Source of the DNA: a virus | Reading direction: 5' to 3' (one strand) | Length of the DNA stretch: 43,742 bases | IMG/VR virus record: IMGVR_UViG_3300035681_000041 | Coordinates: 1-43,742 of that record | Part shown: piece after piece, positions 8,504 through 43,707 of the stretch | How positions within the stretch are numbered: position 1 is the stretch's first letter | How the letters are laid out: every line of letters starts with the position of its first letter | The notes under the pieces: generated by a model | Told to the model about the DNA's origin: nothing | Seen by the model: only the letters and a program-made list of their open reading frames with translations | The model's database searches: none | Translations under genes and position numbers: made by a program

Positions 8504-10501
8504 TTACCTCTTTAGCCAGCCTTTGCGCTTGGCCGGGCCGCCTGTGCTGGAGCCCTTCAGCCAGCCCGATCGCTGGAGGTCTCGGGCTGGGGGTGCCACC
8601 CCTCCACCTCCCGTCCCCGGCGCCTGGGTGCCCAGGGTGCGGGCGAGCTGGGCCCACATGGTGCCTGGGGTGTAGCGACGGGTCACCAGCTGCAGCACCG
8701 CATAGGCGTAGCGGGTGCAGTCGCCACCCTCATCTCGCGCCCCGGTTGGTGCCTCCCAGTGATAGCTGATCTGGCCCCTGCTGCGTCGCGGCATCCGCCT
8801 CCAGGGGAACAGCTCCGCCAAGAATTGATCGGTTGAGCACAGGCCAAAGTGCAGGTAGCCAGGGCCCACGGTCTCGACCCCCAACCGATACTGCAGTGAC
8901 TTGACGCTTTCGTCATAACCCACAAAGTACAGGTTGACCCCGTTCTTTACGATCGGCTTGTTTTTGCGGTTGATACTCACCGGCACGCCCCTGCCTAACA
9001 GCGGTTTGCCCTTTTGCGGAGCCCCTCGAACTGGCACCCAAACATCCTTGCGAGTTGAGCAAAACTCGCGGACCGCTTGGCAACTGGTTGCATCGCCACC
9101 TTCATCGATGCCGCCTCGCGCCAACCTGAGTACGGTCCCATCTTCTCGAATCCATTTGGTTTCAGCGATCCGGTCCAGTTGCGCAAGGGTGTTTTTGTCC
9201 TGGGGGTCGCCATCAATGTCCCAATGGCCCAGGTGCCAGCCCTCCTCCCCAACGCCCCAGCCCCAGACGGTGGCCACCAGTCGCTCGTTTGCTGTGCCGC
9301 CACCGCCCTGGGTGTCCACTCCAGCGGTGATCAACAGCACACCATCGGGCACGCCGGTCAGGGTGAAGTCTTCGCCAAGGATTGAATAGCCGTTGCCCAG
9401 ATCCGTAGACTGCCGGCGCTTGGCCAGGTTGTCGGCCGACACCTTGCCGGCTTGCGAGTCCTCCCAACCTTCGCCGAGCACCGTATTTTTGAAGGTCTGC
9501 ATTGGCTCTGGGTCGCCTTTGCGCAGCGACTCCAAGGCCTCGTCGTATTCACGAACCAGAATTGACCAGTCCGCCGCAGGTGAATAGCTGTAGGCCGCCC
9601 ACACATGGAACCCAATCAAGCCAGGGACCTGGGCAACAGCGGTCGGGCGATCCTCGCAGCGCTCCACCATCCAGCGTTTTTTGCTGTGCGGGATTGGCGT
9701 TTTGCAATTTTCGCATTCGTAATGGGCGGTGAATTCGCCCTTTTTTATCATTTGATCCCATCGCAAAATTTGATAGTGATTGCAAAATGGGCAAGGAACA
9801 AAGAATTTTCTTTGATCTGATTTTTTATATAATTCTTCTGTTCGTCCATCCTTAAATATCGGTGTGCTGCCTACGCCTATCTTGCGGTCCCAGTAATAGT
9901 CGGCACGGTTGCGACCTAGCTTGTAAACATCACCTTCGTCAATTCTGCGATAAGCGTCAAACTCATCAAAGAGAACAATCTTTCTAGACTTGCGCCGAAA
10001 GGCCCGCCCACTGGCAGCATTTACTATATCTATTAAACCGCCATTTCTAAGCTGCTTCAGTAGGATCGTATTACTGCTGGTGTTGCGTGCTTTGGACTCA
10101 GTTATCAGTCCCTGCAGCGCTGGCGTATCCTCAAATAATGGTTTAATTTCTTCTTTGCTATACCCTTCAGCGTCTTCCTTTACTGGCTGCACAATCATGA
10201 TCGGGCATGGATCATGGTGCGAGTAATACTGAACAACAACGCCCAACATTTTTGTCCAGCCAACGCGAGCCGACTTCAGGCAAACCACCGTTTCAACATT
10301 GGGGTTAGTGAACGCATCCAAGATCGGCCGCTGGTATGGCAGCGTCCGCCATTGGCCTTTCTCTGCCGCGTTGCCGGTCATCACCGCGCCGCCATCGACC
10401 GTGGCCGGTTGGTCCGCATATTCCGAAAGCCGCAGCTTCGGCGGTGGCTTGAAACCGCTCAGGATGCGCCGCGTCAAATCCTGCACCGCCGGCAGCATCA
10501 C
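8504..10501 (-). CDS. terL: Terminase large subunit (lambda gpA family)
   Basis: The 665-aa protein is the packaging ATPase and nuclease. A Walker A-like site lies at residues 76-84 (KSARVGWTK) and a Walker B with catalytic acid at about 174-182 (KIVLFDEFD), followed by the coupling region. A Cys-pair zinc-binding element (CPFC, then CENC) is near 230-265, and the C-terminal half carries the RNase H-like nuclease. gpA-type terminases usually cut at cos sites. It follows TerS with a short overlap and precedes the gpW and portal genes. Confidence 0.93.
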   Translation of the reverse strand: MMLPAVQDLTRRILSGFKPPPKLRLSEYADQPATVDGGAVMTGNAAEKGQWRTLPYQRPILDAFTNPNVETVVCLKSARVGWTKMLGVVVQYYSHHDPCPIMIVQPVKEDAEGYSKEEIKPLFEDTPALQGLITESKARNTSSNTILLKQLRNGGLIDIVNAASGRAFRRKSRKIVLFDEFDAYRRIDEGDVYKLGRNRADYYWDRKIGVGSTPIFKDGRTEELYKKSDQRKFFVPCPFCNHYQILRWDQMIKKGEFTAHYECENCKTPIPHSKKRWMVERCEDRPTAVAQVPGLIGFHVWAAYSYSPAADWSILVREYDEALESLRKGDPEPMQTFKNTVLGEGWEDSQAGKVSADNLAKRRQSTDLGNGYSILGEDFTLTGVPDGVLLITAGVDTQGGGGTANERLVATVWGWGVGEEGWHLGHWDIDGDPQDKNTLAQLDRIAETKWIREDGTVLRLARGGIDEGGDATSCQAVREFCSTRKDVWVPVRGAPQKGKPLLGRGVPVSINRKNKPIVKNGVNLYFVGYDESVKSLQYRLGVETVGPGYLHFGLCSTDQFLAELFPWRRMPRRSRGQISYHWEAPTGARDEGGDCTRYAYAVLQLVTRRYTPGTMWAQLARTLGTQAPGTGGGGVAPPARDLQRSGWLKGSSTGGPAKRKGWLKR

Positions 10502-11130
10502 AGATCCTTCAGTGGGTATTGCGTTGCCACGTCAAAGGAAGCCAGGCCCTGCAGCGCTTCACGGATCAGATCAAGCAGCACCGCCACCTCGTCAGGGGTC
10601 AGGTGAGGAATCCGCTGTTTGGCCTTGCTAGGCACGCCCAGCATTACGGTGCGGGTGATGTTGATTGCAGCGTCCTGGGCCTGCAATAACTCCTCCCTGG
10701 GGAGAAGCGCGTTCGCTTTTTCTTTGCGCTCCATCCTGGCAATCAACCGCTTCTCCCGTTCGTGCAGCGCTCGCTCGTCGTTGAAGTTTGGGACTTTCTC
10801 GTCATCGATGTTTGGCTCTGTGTCTAGGTCGTCGTCGGTAAGGTCTGGGGCGGAGGGGCGCGAGAGCTTGGGGGGTGCCTGGCTTGCTGGCGTGGCGGCC
10901 TTCGGCCTGGTCTTCTGTTCTTGGTTGGCATTGGTCCCACGCGGCGCCGGGTCGGTGGCCTGGGCCCACTGCTCATCAGCAAGAGCCGGGTCAATCTCCC
11001 AGCCCTTCCCTTGACGCTCAACTGCTGGAGATTGCAGCCGACCATTCTTAATCGCCCTGAGCACCGATACATGAGTGGCCCCTCGCAGACCCAGGGCCTT
11101 GCGGTGATCGGCGTACTGCTGGAGGTTCAC
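10498..11130 (-). CDS. terS: Terminase small subunit (Nu1-like)
   Basis: The 210-aa product starts at a GTG. The first 60 residues look like a winged helix-turn-helix (MNLQQYADHRKALGLRGATH, then SVLRAIKNGRLQ), the DNA-binding part of Nu1-type subunits. A disordered Pro/Ala/Asp-rich linker (about 60-110) is followed by a helical C-terminus with the family motif RTVMLGVPSKAKQRI (about 160-175), used for assembly and TerL contact. It lies directly left of a non-coding region with five regularly spaced repeats, a natural candidate for its binding site. Confidence 0.85.
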   Translation of the reverse strand: MNLQQYADHRKALGLRGATHVSVLRAIKNGRLQSPAVERQGKGWEIDPALADEQWAQATDPAPRGTNANQEQKTRPKAATPASQAPPKLSRPSAPDLTDDDLDTEPNIDDEKVPNFNDERALHEREKRLIARMERKEKANALLPREELLQAQDAAINITRTVMLGVPSKAKQRIPHLTPDEVAVLLDLIREALQGLASFDVATQYPLKDL

Positions 11131-11195
11131 TCTGTCTGCTTCACCAGCATTGGATCTGTACCCATAGACATATTGTAACCAGCTGCGTACAAAAT

Positions 11196-11262
11196 AGGTT
11201 ACAACCCTGTGATGCCAAGCGATTACACCGGTTACAGGCTGGCCATAGCAAGGGTTGTACCT
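11196..11262. repeat. Imperfect inverted repeat with GGTTACA arms
   Basis: The left arm aggttacaaccct (11196-11208) is matched in inverse by agggttgtacct (11251-11262), with one base missing. Two further GGTTACA-type copies are at 11174-11180 (inverted) and 11230-11236 (direct). Such partial two-fold symmetry would suit a cosN-like nick site or a regulator site. Nothing here decides between them. Confidence 0.5.
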
Positions 11263-11306
11263 TTATTGAGAAGCGTTATCAACAGATAAATCGCGGCTTC
11301 GTGGTT

Positions 11307-11458
11307 CCCTCGGTATGTGTCGCTCGGGAGGACCCAAGCCGAAACCCCTTGGCATGACTGGGTTCTTGGCAGATCCCTTGGTATGACTGGGATTTGGGGC
11401 AAGATTCCGAAACCCCTTGGTATAACTGAGATTTGCTGAGATCCCTTGGTATGACTGG
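11307..11458. repeat. Five 16-bp direct repeats spaced 39/29/39/29
   Basis: The core cccttggtatgactgg occurs at 11346 (one change), 11375 (exact), 11414 (two changes) and 11443 (exact), with a weaker copy at 11307 (three or four changes). Start-to-start distances are 39, 29, 39 and 29 bases, a strict alternation. Evenly phased direct repeats next to a Nu1-like gene recall lambda cosB R sites, bound by the small terminase subunit. Iterons for replication are the alternative. Confidence 0.75.
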
Positions 11459-11466
11459 GCCGTGCA

Positions 11467-12117
11467 TCATCGCCCCCCATAGCCCCTGGCTGCGGAGTCC
11501 AGAGCCCGCTTGTAGCCCGCTATGAAGCTCCTGTTGATCTCGATGTTGATCTCGGTCTGGATTAGCTGGCTGTGCTCGCCCTTGTCAAACATCCGTGCCA
11601 CCGACGGCCCATAGACGACCTGCAACCGCCTTTTGCCATCAGGCTTGCGCTTGTTTCCGACCCTGAAGGGCAGCATGACGCCGCCTTTGCCCATGGCCAT
11701 GAAGGTTGTTGGGTAGTCCTGGCGCTGGCCGCGCAGGATGCTCGCTCGACCAGGCTTCCCCCTTTTGGTGGCTTTACCCCAACCACGGCCACGGCCTAGC
11801 CCTGGGAGCCCTGTGGCGCGAGTACCGGGCCTGAATCCGAACTGGCTTAGCGTTGGTGCGCGTGCTGCAAACGTGAGAGTTGCTTCCCCTCGGCTAGCAT
11901 ATCCCGTAAACAGACTTACATCCTGTTTAATACGCCTTGATCCAATGTTATATCTTTGGCTGATGCTTTTGCCTGCCTGCTTATTGGCAGACGTGGCAGC
12001 GGCCAAGATGCCTGCCCTTGTTGCCTTCTGAAACAATTTAGGATCAAGGAAAGCCCGCATCTTCTCCAGCTGGCTAATGCCTTCGACCTTAACCCTGATG
12101 AATTCGTTGGTGCCCAT
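11467..12117 (-). CDS. Minor tail protein Z-like (gpZ family)
   Basis: The 216-aa, very basic product matches the form of prophage minor tail protein Z: an opening helical part (EFIRVKVEGISQLEKMRAFL), the ALA-rich segment RAGILAAATSANKQAGKSI, a central Gly/Arg-rich loop region (about 90-150) and a C-terminal helix. gpZ acts in tail completion and head-tail joining. In lambda it lies between FII and U; here it lies upstream of the terminase genes, a displaced position. Its ATG directly abuts the stop of the nuclease-like gene. Confidence 0.65.
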   Translation of the reverse strand: MGTNEFIRVKVEGISQLEKMRAFLDPKLFQKATRAGILAAATSANKQAGKSISQRYNIGSRRIKQDVSLFTGYASRGEATLTFAARAPTLSQFGFRPGTRATGLPGLGRGRGWGKATKRGKPGRASILRGQRQDYPTTFMAMGKGGVMLPFRVGNKRKPDGKRRLQVVYGPSVARMFDKGEHSQLIQTEINIEINRSFIAGYKRALDSAARGYGGR

Positions 12118-12477: not shown

Positions 12478-13101
12478 TCAAACCCGTTTTGCCGGTTCAA
12501 CCACGCGCCGGTAGTGCAAACCATTGGCAGCCCAGCCCTTGTCAAGGGCAGCTGAAATGCCAGACTTATTGACAAATGCAGCAACAGATGCCTCTTTTAT
12601 TGATTTATAGCGTTGGCCTGTTTCAATACATTCAACCTCAACAGTTTGTTTTAATCTTGGCAAATTCATGGCAACGATTTTGGAGGCCCGTGTTTCCGAG
12701 TCAAAAAGCTGGGTCAGCTCTGAATGATCAATACCGCCAAACTGTTGGGGATGCTTTCTAGCAAAGGCCCAAAGCTCGTCACGCGACACAAAGCGATGAC
12801 CCTTACTAGGCTTATATGACTGAACGTATTTAAGTTGTTTTGAATCTAACCAATACTTAATGCGATCATAACTATGGCCTGTAAGTTTTTGGATTGCACC
12901 GGTTGAAATATATTCACCCTCTGATCTGGTCGATAGCCCCATGGACCAGGCCTTGCAGCGGAGGGAATTCCAGGATCTGGGGGGCCTGAGGCGGTTGAAT
13001 TCGGCAACCAGCAGCCGCATGGGCAGCTCGCCTGCCAGCTCGGTAAGCAGGTGGATGTCTTCGGGGGTGTACGGCTTGCGCTTGGGTGCTGATTGGGGCA
13101 T
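12478..13101 (-). CDS. DNA-binding protein with NUMOD/HTH-like domain
   Basis: The 207-aa protein begins with a basic helical part (about 8-55). The middle segment TGAIQKLTGHSYDRIKYWLD (about 67-87) looks like a MerR/excisionase-type helix-turn-helix. The C-terminus (about 150-200, ETGQRYKSIKEASVAA, NKSGISAALDKGWAANGLHYRRV) has the NUMOD1-like DNA-recognition pattern seen in homing endonucleases, but no nuclease domain is visible. It lies just downstream of a dense GTTCAC/GTGAAC site array and may bind there to regulate rightward or leftward genes. Confidence 0.6.
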   Translation of the reverse strand: MPQSAPKRKPYTPEDIHLLTELAGELPMRLLVAEFNRLRPPRSWNSLRCKAWSMGLSTRSEGEYISTGAIQKLTGHSYDRIKYWLDSKQLKYVQSYKPSKGHRFVSRDELWAFARKHPQQFGGIDHSELTQLFDSETRASKIVAMNLPRLKQTVEVECIETGQRYKSIKEASVAAFVNKSGISAALDKGWAANGLHYRRVVEPAKRV

Positions 13102-42762: not shown

Positions 42763-43707
42763 TCAGGTCTGAACAATGGTCAGCTCTTGGTTAGCCGCTT
42801 CGGCAACCATCCGGCCTTGAAGCTGAATGTAATTGCTATCCTTGACATTGACAAGGCTAGGCATTACCTGAACTTGCGGCAGGTTGAAAGTGTTGATGTT
42901 GCCAGCCACCGTACCGACTGGAAGCACCAACGCGCCTAGCTGAGAGTTAGAAGCATTGGTAAACACGTCCAATGTTTCAATTGGAGGGCGAGCGATTGTA
43001 AGAGTAAATGTTACAGTTCGATCGGTAAAATCAATGTGAGGCACGCACCCGGCATTATCGTAATACTGGGTGATATTTTCAATGGTCAGCTCAAACGCCT
43101 CTACGCAAACCCCAACGCCGGCAAACGTCAGCGAACCCGGTGTAGTGCTGGACGAATCGAACGGCACCGAATTGGCCAGTGGCGCCGGATAGCTTGGGGT
43201 CGGGTTGGCAACGGTTGCAGGGGGGCGGTAGAGGCCCATGTAGCTGGCAACGCCGCTCAATACTTGGCTGGCGTTGCCGCTGATTACCAGCTTGCTGACT
43301 CGCCCGCCAGCAGCGGAATACACCACGCCATCGCGGTGAAACCGTGCGGTGTGGGTGATTGCCGGCGGCGGCCAGGCCAGGGCATAGCTCACGCTGCCGC
43401 TGGCCCCGGCAACCACGCTGGAATTGAAGCCTGCGGCCAGCATCACCGGATTGAGGGCCGAGATCGCGCCACGGGTGCCCGAACCCGCAAACTCAAACGG
43501 GATGTCAGCGGAAACCTTGCGCTCGGTGATCGCCGCCGCCCGCTGCGTGCCAGGGCGAGCGCCTAGCTGCGTTCGCTCAACCTCCCCCCAGTCGGCCACA
43601 TTGGGGTCAAACGATCCGCAGGGGATCGCGTTAGCCCCGGTCAGCGTTACCGCTGTGCCGCTGGTTGTTTCGGGGCCCAGCAGGAAGATTTGGTCGCGGT
43701 AGGGCAT
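42763..43707 (-). CDS. Major tail tube protein
   Basis: The 314-aa product (MPYRDQIFLLGPETTSGTAV) is a beta-rich protein with the overall order of siphovirus tail tube subunits: a short N-terminal arm, strands with Gly/Ser-rich loops (about 70-160), a possible inserted domain, and a C-terminal strand pair (YIQLQGRMVAEAANQELTIVQ). It is the first gene after the terminator-like genes and before the chaperones, the normal tail tube position. The gene spans the repeated end of the window; its first 92 bases also appear at 1-92. Confidence 0.85.
   Translation of the reverse strand: MPYRDQIFLLGPETTSGTAVTLTGANAIPCGSFDPNVADWGEVERTQLGARPGTQRAAAITERKVSADIPFEFAGSGTRGAISALNPVMLAAGFNSSVVAGASGSVSYALAWPPPAITHTARFHRDGVVYSAAGGRVSKLVISGNASQVLSGVASYMGLYRPPATVANPTPSYPAPLANSVPFDSSSTTPGSLTFAGVGVCVEAFELTIENITQYYDNAGCVPHIDFTDRTVTFTLTIARPPIETLDVFTNASNSQLGALVLPVGTVAGNINTFNLPQVQVMPSLVNVKDSNYIQLQGRMVAEAANQELTIVQT

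Follow-up and report, generated by a model that had tools for sequence, protein, structure and literature searches.

What is a strictly spaced array of 16-bp repeats doing next to the small terminase gene of a cyanophage, and is it the site at which the packaging enzyme binds? The question is raised by a virus record in IMG/VR that is 43,742 bases long and is referred to here, in full, as the window. An earlier note on this DNA had described five 16-bp repeats in a 39/29/39/29 rhythm and interpreted them as a probable cosB-like site, that is, as R sites bound in pairs by the small terminase, TerS. The positions of all features discussed are collected in Table 1.

The array and its surroundings

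The repeats themselves are real, with four good copies and a weak fifth one (12/16) at the places where they had been reported and with start-to-start spacings of exactly 39/29/39/29. Matches to the 16-mer with three or fewer mismatches occur five times in the window, four of them within 113 bp, as compared to a mean of 0.44 and a maximum of 2 in shuffled sequences. The alternating rhythm arises because a unit with two copies has been duplicated over 68 bp; self-comparison of the window reveals a 53-nt repeat at +68 (83%). The earlier note had proposed to search related phages for the same spacing, and the rhythm is kept without indels in all eight full arrays compared; the distance of 27 bp from copy 1 to the heptamer GGGTCCT is likewise kept across the array phages. 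The weak copy straddles the cosN cut described below, and at its position the array-less relatives carry unrelated sequence; we are unsure whether it is a true copy.

As previously stated, the repeats stand in a region without genes: no gene is predicted in the interval from a gpZ-like tail completion gene to terS, which the array occupies. The description of the array as directly upstream of terS is inexact, as it starts ~215 bp from the terS start codon, with cosQ and cosN in between.

Table 1. Features of the terminase region in the window, ordered by position.
Feature	Position	Strand	Remarks
terL, lambda gpA type	8504..10501	-
terS, small terminase, phrog_57	10498..11130	-	phrog_57 E 1.1e-19; N-terminal helix-helix-hairpin-helix
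Direct R1-like site GGTTACAA	11173..11180	-
Inverted R2-like site TTGTAACC	11197..11204	-
Degenerate element copy in candidate cosB	11203..11223	-	19/21 consensus positions; between R3-like and inverted R2-like sites
R3-like site GGTACAACC, predicted TerS site	11253..11261	-	bp 48-56 from left end; follows TerS class
Conserved TTGATAACG	11274..11282	-	position of lambda I2, between cosN and cosB, by analogy (PMC4669245)
Predicted cosN	11297..11308	-	from contig edges of relatives and right-end contigs L185, L144
Weak fifth copy	11307..11322	+	12/16 match; overlaps right half of cosN
cosQ, GGGTCCT	11329..11335	-	identical to lambda heptamer
Element copy 1, CCCTTGGCATGACTGG	11346..11361	+	1 mismatch to CCCTTGGTATGACTGG; copy nearest cosQ
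Element copy 2, CCCTTGGTATGACTGG	11375..11390	+	0 mismatches
Element copy 3, CCCTTGGTATAACTGA	11414..11429	+	2 mismatches to CCCTTGGTATGACTGG
Element copy 4, CCCTTGGTATGACTGG	11443..11458	+	0 mismatches; 9 nt past gpZ-like stop codon
gpZ-like tail completion gene, allele c1	11467..12117	-	array travels with allele c1

TerS is of the Nu1-like kind, a member of the small terminase family with an N-terminal winged helix-turn-helix. Its predicted structure runs H3-13, H20-28, E37-40, E43-46 and H48-58, with a pLDDT of 74-86 over the block, and Foldseek comparison of this structure with the PDB gave no significant match. According to the alignment, TerS proteins are modular, one DNA-binding N-terminus being combined with two unlike C-termini that accompany the two TerL types (97%, ~43%). 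Two genes upstream of the gpZ-like gene, at 12478-13101, lies the gene of a protein with a weak match to a helix-turn-helix, which is found in relatives with and without the array. At positions 1-258 and 42763-43707 of the window, minus-strand ORFs seem to cross the contig ends, as in a permuted circle.

The probable cut site

Relatives of the phage were gathered by TerL, TerS and DNA patterns, and many of their contigs share an edge ~178 bp upstream of terS. Among 33 contig edges that fall within -60..+400, 21 lie on bp 1 +-1 (uniform null, p ~4e-38). The sequences at this edge are unlike each other, nearly all starting with GG (GGAACCACG, GGTCATCTC, GGAATACC, GGTGTATTC and others), and because they differ, an assembly break at a shared k-mer is a poor explanation. 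The edge is imperfect: two contigs (L005 and L094) begin 7 bp inside it, and a few more begin close to it. By homology to these edges, the left end of the virion DNA is placed at 11308 on the minus strand, reading 5'-GGAACCACGAAG.

The heptamer GGGTCCT lies 27 nt from this end in the window and 30 nt from the left end in lambda (NC_001416). It is perfectly kept in relatives with a TerS of class A1, A2, B or C, even though the DNA around it is otherwise dissimilar. Among lambda-like phages, conservation of the 7-bp cosQ is high, and termination requires it (PMC4669245). Because the contigs of relatives share one edge and GGGTCCT stands 27 bp away, 11308 is read as cosN, which would put the repeats on the cosQ, or right-end, side. 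With DNA ends fixed at one site, as judged from the contig edges, and a cosQ ~30 bp from the left end, a lambda-type cos almost certainly lies here beside the Nu1-like terS.

Evidence on the right end comes from L185 and L144, contigs of other phages outside the array family, which end 39 nt beyond the first base of GGGTCCT and hence ~12-13 nt past bp 1. A right end with a filled-in 5' extension of 12-13 nt would look like this. L185 is of the same phage type as L157, whose contig crosses the site. Two scans for right-end contigs of the array family returned none.

The same GG edge is also the start of L080, a contig with an S-LBS1-like TerS. For S-LBS1, a relative by TerL, headful packaging was predicted by its authors (PMC6157547). 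A cosQ was not found in the parts of the S-LBS1 sequence searched, and a long direct repeat of TTAGGCAG-like units is present just before the end of the record (MG271909.1 34230-34641, L239).

A candidate cosB between the cut and terS

A cut at 11308 leaves 11131-11307, the stretch up to terS, as the place where cosB has to be. In this interval candidate sites follow each other in the order R3-R2-R1 with R2 inverted, an assignment made by sequence only. Counted from bp 1, the terS start is at 179 in the window, 191 in lambda and 89 in N15, and R3 occupies bp 50-65 in lambda and bp 48-60 in N15. The R3-like site differs by TerS class: GGTACA in A1, GGTTACAAG in A2, GGTTGC in B, and mostly GGCGACC, or TGCGAC, in C. 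It changes together with the DNA-binding domain of TerS, and is predicted to be bound by it. The link between site and class holds even in A2 phages, in which terS is mostly >1.4 kb away.

In six phages, A2-type and some others (L113, L156, L116, L240, L057 and L077), 0.7-1.7 kb of DNA, including methyltransferase-like genes, is located between cos and terS, and the R3-like site still fits the TerS class. At the contig starts of L073 and L075, ~42-bp tandem repeats (CCTCGGGAATGCGGGGCAGGGCGTCAACCGCGAGCTGCCGCA) reach into the terS region.

In addition, the candidate cosB contains a degenerate copy of the repeat element, at bp 86-106 from the left end in the window. Similar copies match 16 to 19 of 21 positions in A1 relatives, are flipped in four class B relatives, are weaker in A2 and are absent from classes C and D; they account for no more than three independent events, and some of them were already in view when the consensus was settled.

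The array probably stands apart from TerS recognition

The cos half of the earlier interpretation is borne out by the edges at 11308 and by GGGTCCT, and the cosB half fails, since the repeats lie beyond cosQ. Being located there, and not between cosN and terS, the 16-bp repeats are, in our judgement with good confidence, not TerS R sites. Their sequence does not follow the TerS DNA-binding domain either: arrays with at least three copies are combined with a TerS of class A1, A2 or B and with two kinds of TerL, and the array-less phages likewise include classes A1, A2 and B. The earlier note had named relatives that keep terS and lack the repeats as the case that would speak against it, and L009, whose TerS and TerL are 90% and 96% identical to those of the window, has no repeat. 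The presence of the array, of a single flipped copy or of no copy corresponds to three different gpZ-like alleles, the array going with allele c1, and phages with the second allele have one copy in the opposite direction at an equal distance from cosQ. While the repeats do adjoin cos and a Nu1-like terS, come as 16-bp units and keep a fixed spacing, their place on the wrong side of cosN, their absence beside a 90% identical TerS, their constancy when the TerS DNA-binding domain changes, and the occurrence of the motif in plasmids and in phages with other packaging systems make paired TerS binding a very improbable role for them.

Constraint on the repeat core

The core AGTCATRSCAAGG is ~34-fold less divergent than the spacers (mean difference 0.006 vs 0.19), as measured at 44 positions (AGTCAT..CAAGG) in the eight full arrays, a small sample in that L240 and L243 are nearly identical. 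No shifted mask separates conserved from variable positions as well. Each core has two variable positions (R and S), which are also the variable ones in unrelated phages (TTGG/TTGC, TAT/CAT). By this comparison, the repeat core is shown to behave as a sequence under strong constraint. The array could also be thought of as a neutral tandem duplication carried along with a gpZ allele, given that its copy number is variable (1, 2, 2 plus a half, 4) and that a 45-bp deletion form is common; with cores so much less divergent than spacers, tolerated positions that match those of unrelated phages, and spacers free of indels in the full arrays, this is scarcely credible.

An element of many phages and plasmids

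The repeat unit very likely represents a widely distributed 21-bp element, ANCCCTTGGTATGACTGGGNT, to judge from sequence matches. The exact 16-mer is found in at least 119 stretches of IMG/VR, in unrelated phages; 15 of 54 such stretches fall in ORFs of 100 aa or more, compared with 77% of random positions, and an A at -2 and a T at +18 are also preferred. A 34-nt consensus matches 28 phage records, 26 of them cyanophages, nearly all at intergenic places, and the reversed consensus, used as a control, matches 17 unrelated records with lower coverage. More inverted repeats surround the phage copies than other intergenic places of the same contigs.

In the Prochlorococcus phage P-SSP7, a variant of the element is present near both genome ends (81-95 and 45051-45065), inside the terminal repeats, which are 206 bp long in a genome whose ends have been determined (PMC3350473). 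S-SBP1 likewise has the degenerate pattern in its terminal repeats, and in S-CBP3 and S-CBP4 it lies close to where the record begins; it is absent from T7, T4 and lambda. With up to 1 mismatch allowed, the cyanophages Syn5, S-CBS1, S-CBS2, S-CBS3, S-PM2 and S-LBS1 gave no match. The element is carried as well by T4-like cyanophages, phages that have no fixed ends, and by unrelated lambda-like phages beside cosQ, with three copies in L136 and one each in L157 and L185. In L137, about thirteen tandem decamers, ATCCCTTGGT, equal to the left half of the element, are located ~410-530 bp from it.

Among plasmids, the consensus matches 30 records and the reversed control none; the independence of these records is low, as 8 of them share a single coding match and many more come from one plasmid family. 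In an E. coli plasmid, the element has a DnaA box with AT-rich repeats on one side and, on the other, the iterons that lie upstream of repB; in Desulfosporosinus, it adjoins a replication-relaxation gene; and in an E. coli chromosomal element, the motif lies amid iteron-like TTCGCATAAT inverted repeats. No paper describing the motif was found in the open-licence literature by sequence or topic, and the element has apparently been undescribed so far. Primers for a rolling-circle origin (PMC7072734) contain a 13-mer match to the motif, too short to weigh.

Possible roles of the element

As a whole, the locus is probably best explained as a lambda-type cos accompanied by an array of a separate, widespread and putatively architectural element. 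In this explanation, terminase would cut at 11308 and leave a left end starting 5'-GG; cosQ would be 27 bp away on one side, the interval up to terS would contain a cosB made up of TerS sites, and the array would consist of element copies at the extreme right end of the chromosome, outside TerS recognition. The element may be bound by a protein that recognises its sequence, encoded by the host or shared by many replicons, and that bends or organises DNA beside the site clusters of other proteins, namely terminase at phage ends and Rep at plasmid origins. The architectural accessory role taken for itself is tentative. It is suggested by the copies between R3 and R2 in cosB and by the plasmid copy between the DnaA box and the iterons, and the dispensability of the array in close relatives counts against the explanation. 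IHF organises DNA at lambda cos; its consensus is WATCAANNNNTTR, and the 16-mer is plainly without WATCAA. IHF-alpha scored over the cut-off in 1 of 14 control genomes, taken to be that of E. coli, and Synechococcus elongatus gave only a signal in that search, presumably through HU. Because of the cosB copies and this distribution of IHF-alpha, an architectural site is favoured, with a replication signal as the main rival.

According to this rival, the element would load helicase or primase or form part of an origin, and the array would be a phage origin beside cos. The plasmid copy between DnaA box and iterons argues for it, as do the adjacent replication-relaxation gene, the iteron-like repeats around the E. 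coli chromosomal copy, the enrichment of inverted repeats around phage copies and a primase/helicase-like gene 2 kb upstream in the window. Yet the last copy of cos phages is fixed 26-27 bp from cosQ, T7-like cyanophages carry the element in terminal repeats and not at an internal origin, and array-less relatives retain their replication genes, so that a replication signal is rather unlikely. A role of the array in transcription of the gpZ-like operon, as a terminator, an operator or an RNA site, is improbable: the array does follow closely behind the gpZ stop codon and travels with one gpZ allele, but a terminator search found none, the RNA fold is ordinary (z -0.43), the flanks are without covariation, there is no Rfam match, and the element occurs in either orientation beside many other genes. 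A broader view, plausible if not quite probable, is that this short, highly conserved element, which unrelated cyanophages have in common with other phages and with plasmids from several phyla, sits at nucleoprotein hubs, such as phage ends, cos, and plasmid origins amid repeats specific to the replicon, and that a putative conserved protein, either IHF-like or replication-loading, recognises it.

Several other candidates were tried and rejected. For an RNA hairpin with an 11-nt loop (flanks such as GCTGAGA...TCTCAGC), flank pairs equal the shuffled null, folding energies are ordinary (z -0.6 and -1.5) and stem runs reach p 0.11. A coding explanation (a PWYDW motif) does not fit matches that are mostly outside ORFs; searches for a terminator, an Rfam family and a sigma-70 promoter yielded nothing above chance; and an Erwinia match to the two-copy pattern is an unrelated tandem repeat.

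These observations matter in several respects. Contig edges alone place the probable cut site for a large group of freshwater cyanophages that are uncultured, and the lambda cosQ heptamer is shown to be kept in phages of cyanobacteria. The predicted TerS recognition sites are set apart from a second element, which is preserved nearly unchanged in many unrelated replicons. If one protein reads this element, it would be an overlooked factor, of the host or of mobile elements, acting at phage ends and plasmid origins.

Comparison with known systems

The site resembles lambda cos in the GGGTCCT heptamer and its similar distance from the left end (27 vs 30 nt), in a left end that starts with GG, in an R3-like site at bp 48 followed by inverted and direct R-like sites, and in the adjoining gpA-type TerL and Nu1-like TerS. 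A 5' extension of 12-13 nt is predicted for the window, beside the 12 nt of lambda-type cohesive ends. The site differs in that the R sequences of the window group are unlike those of lambda and vary with TerS class, that a degenerate element copy occupies the place of the lambda IHF site between R3 and R2, and that the array on the cosQ side has no lambda counterpart. With N15 cos, a site at the R3 position seems to be the common denominator, its sequence being set by TerS class, whereas the window has further inverted and direct sites and the extra array beyond cosQ. P-SSP7, which has T7-like packaging, no cos and one copy per direct terminal repeat, is similar in that a variant of the element lies close to each end of its genome. 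An IHF site is present in the iteron origin of pSC101, as it is in lambda cosB; the element differs from the IHF consensus in sequence but takes comparable positions, between R3 and R2 in the one setting and between DnaA box and iterons in the other.
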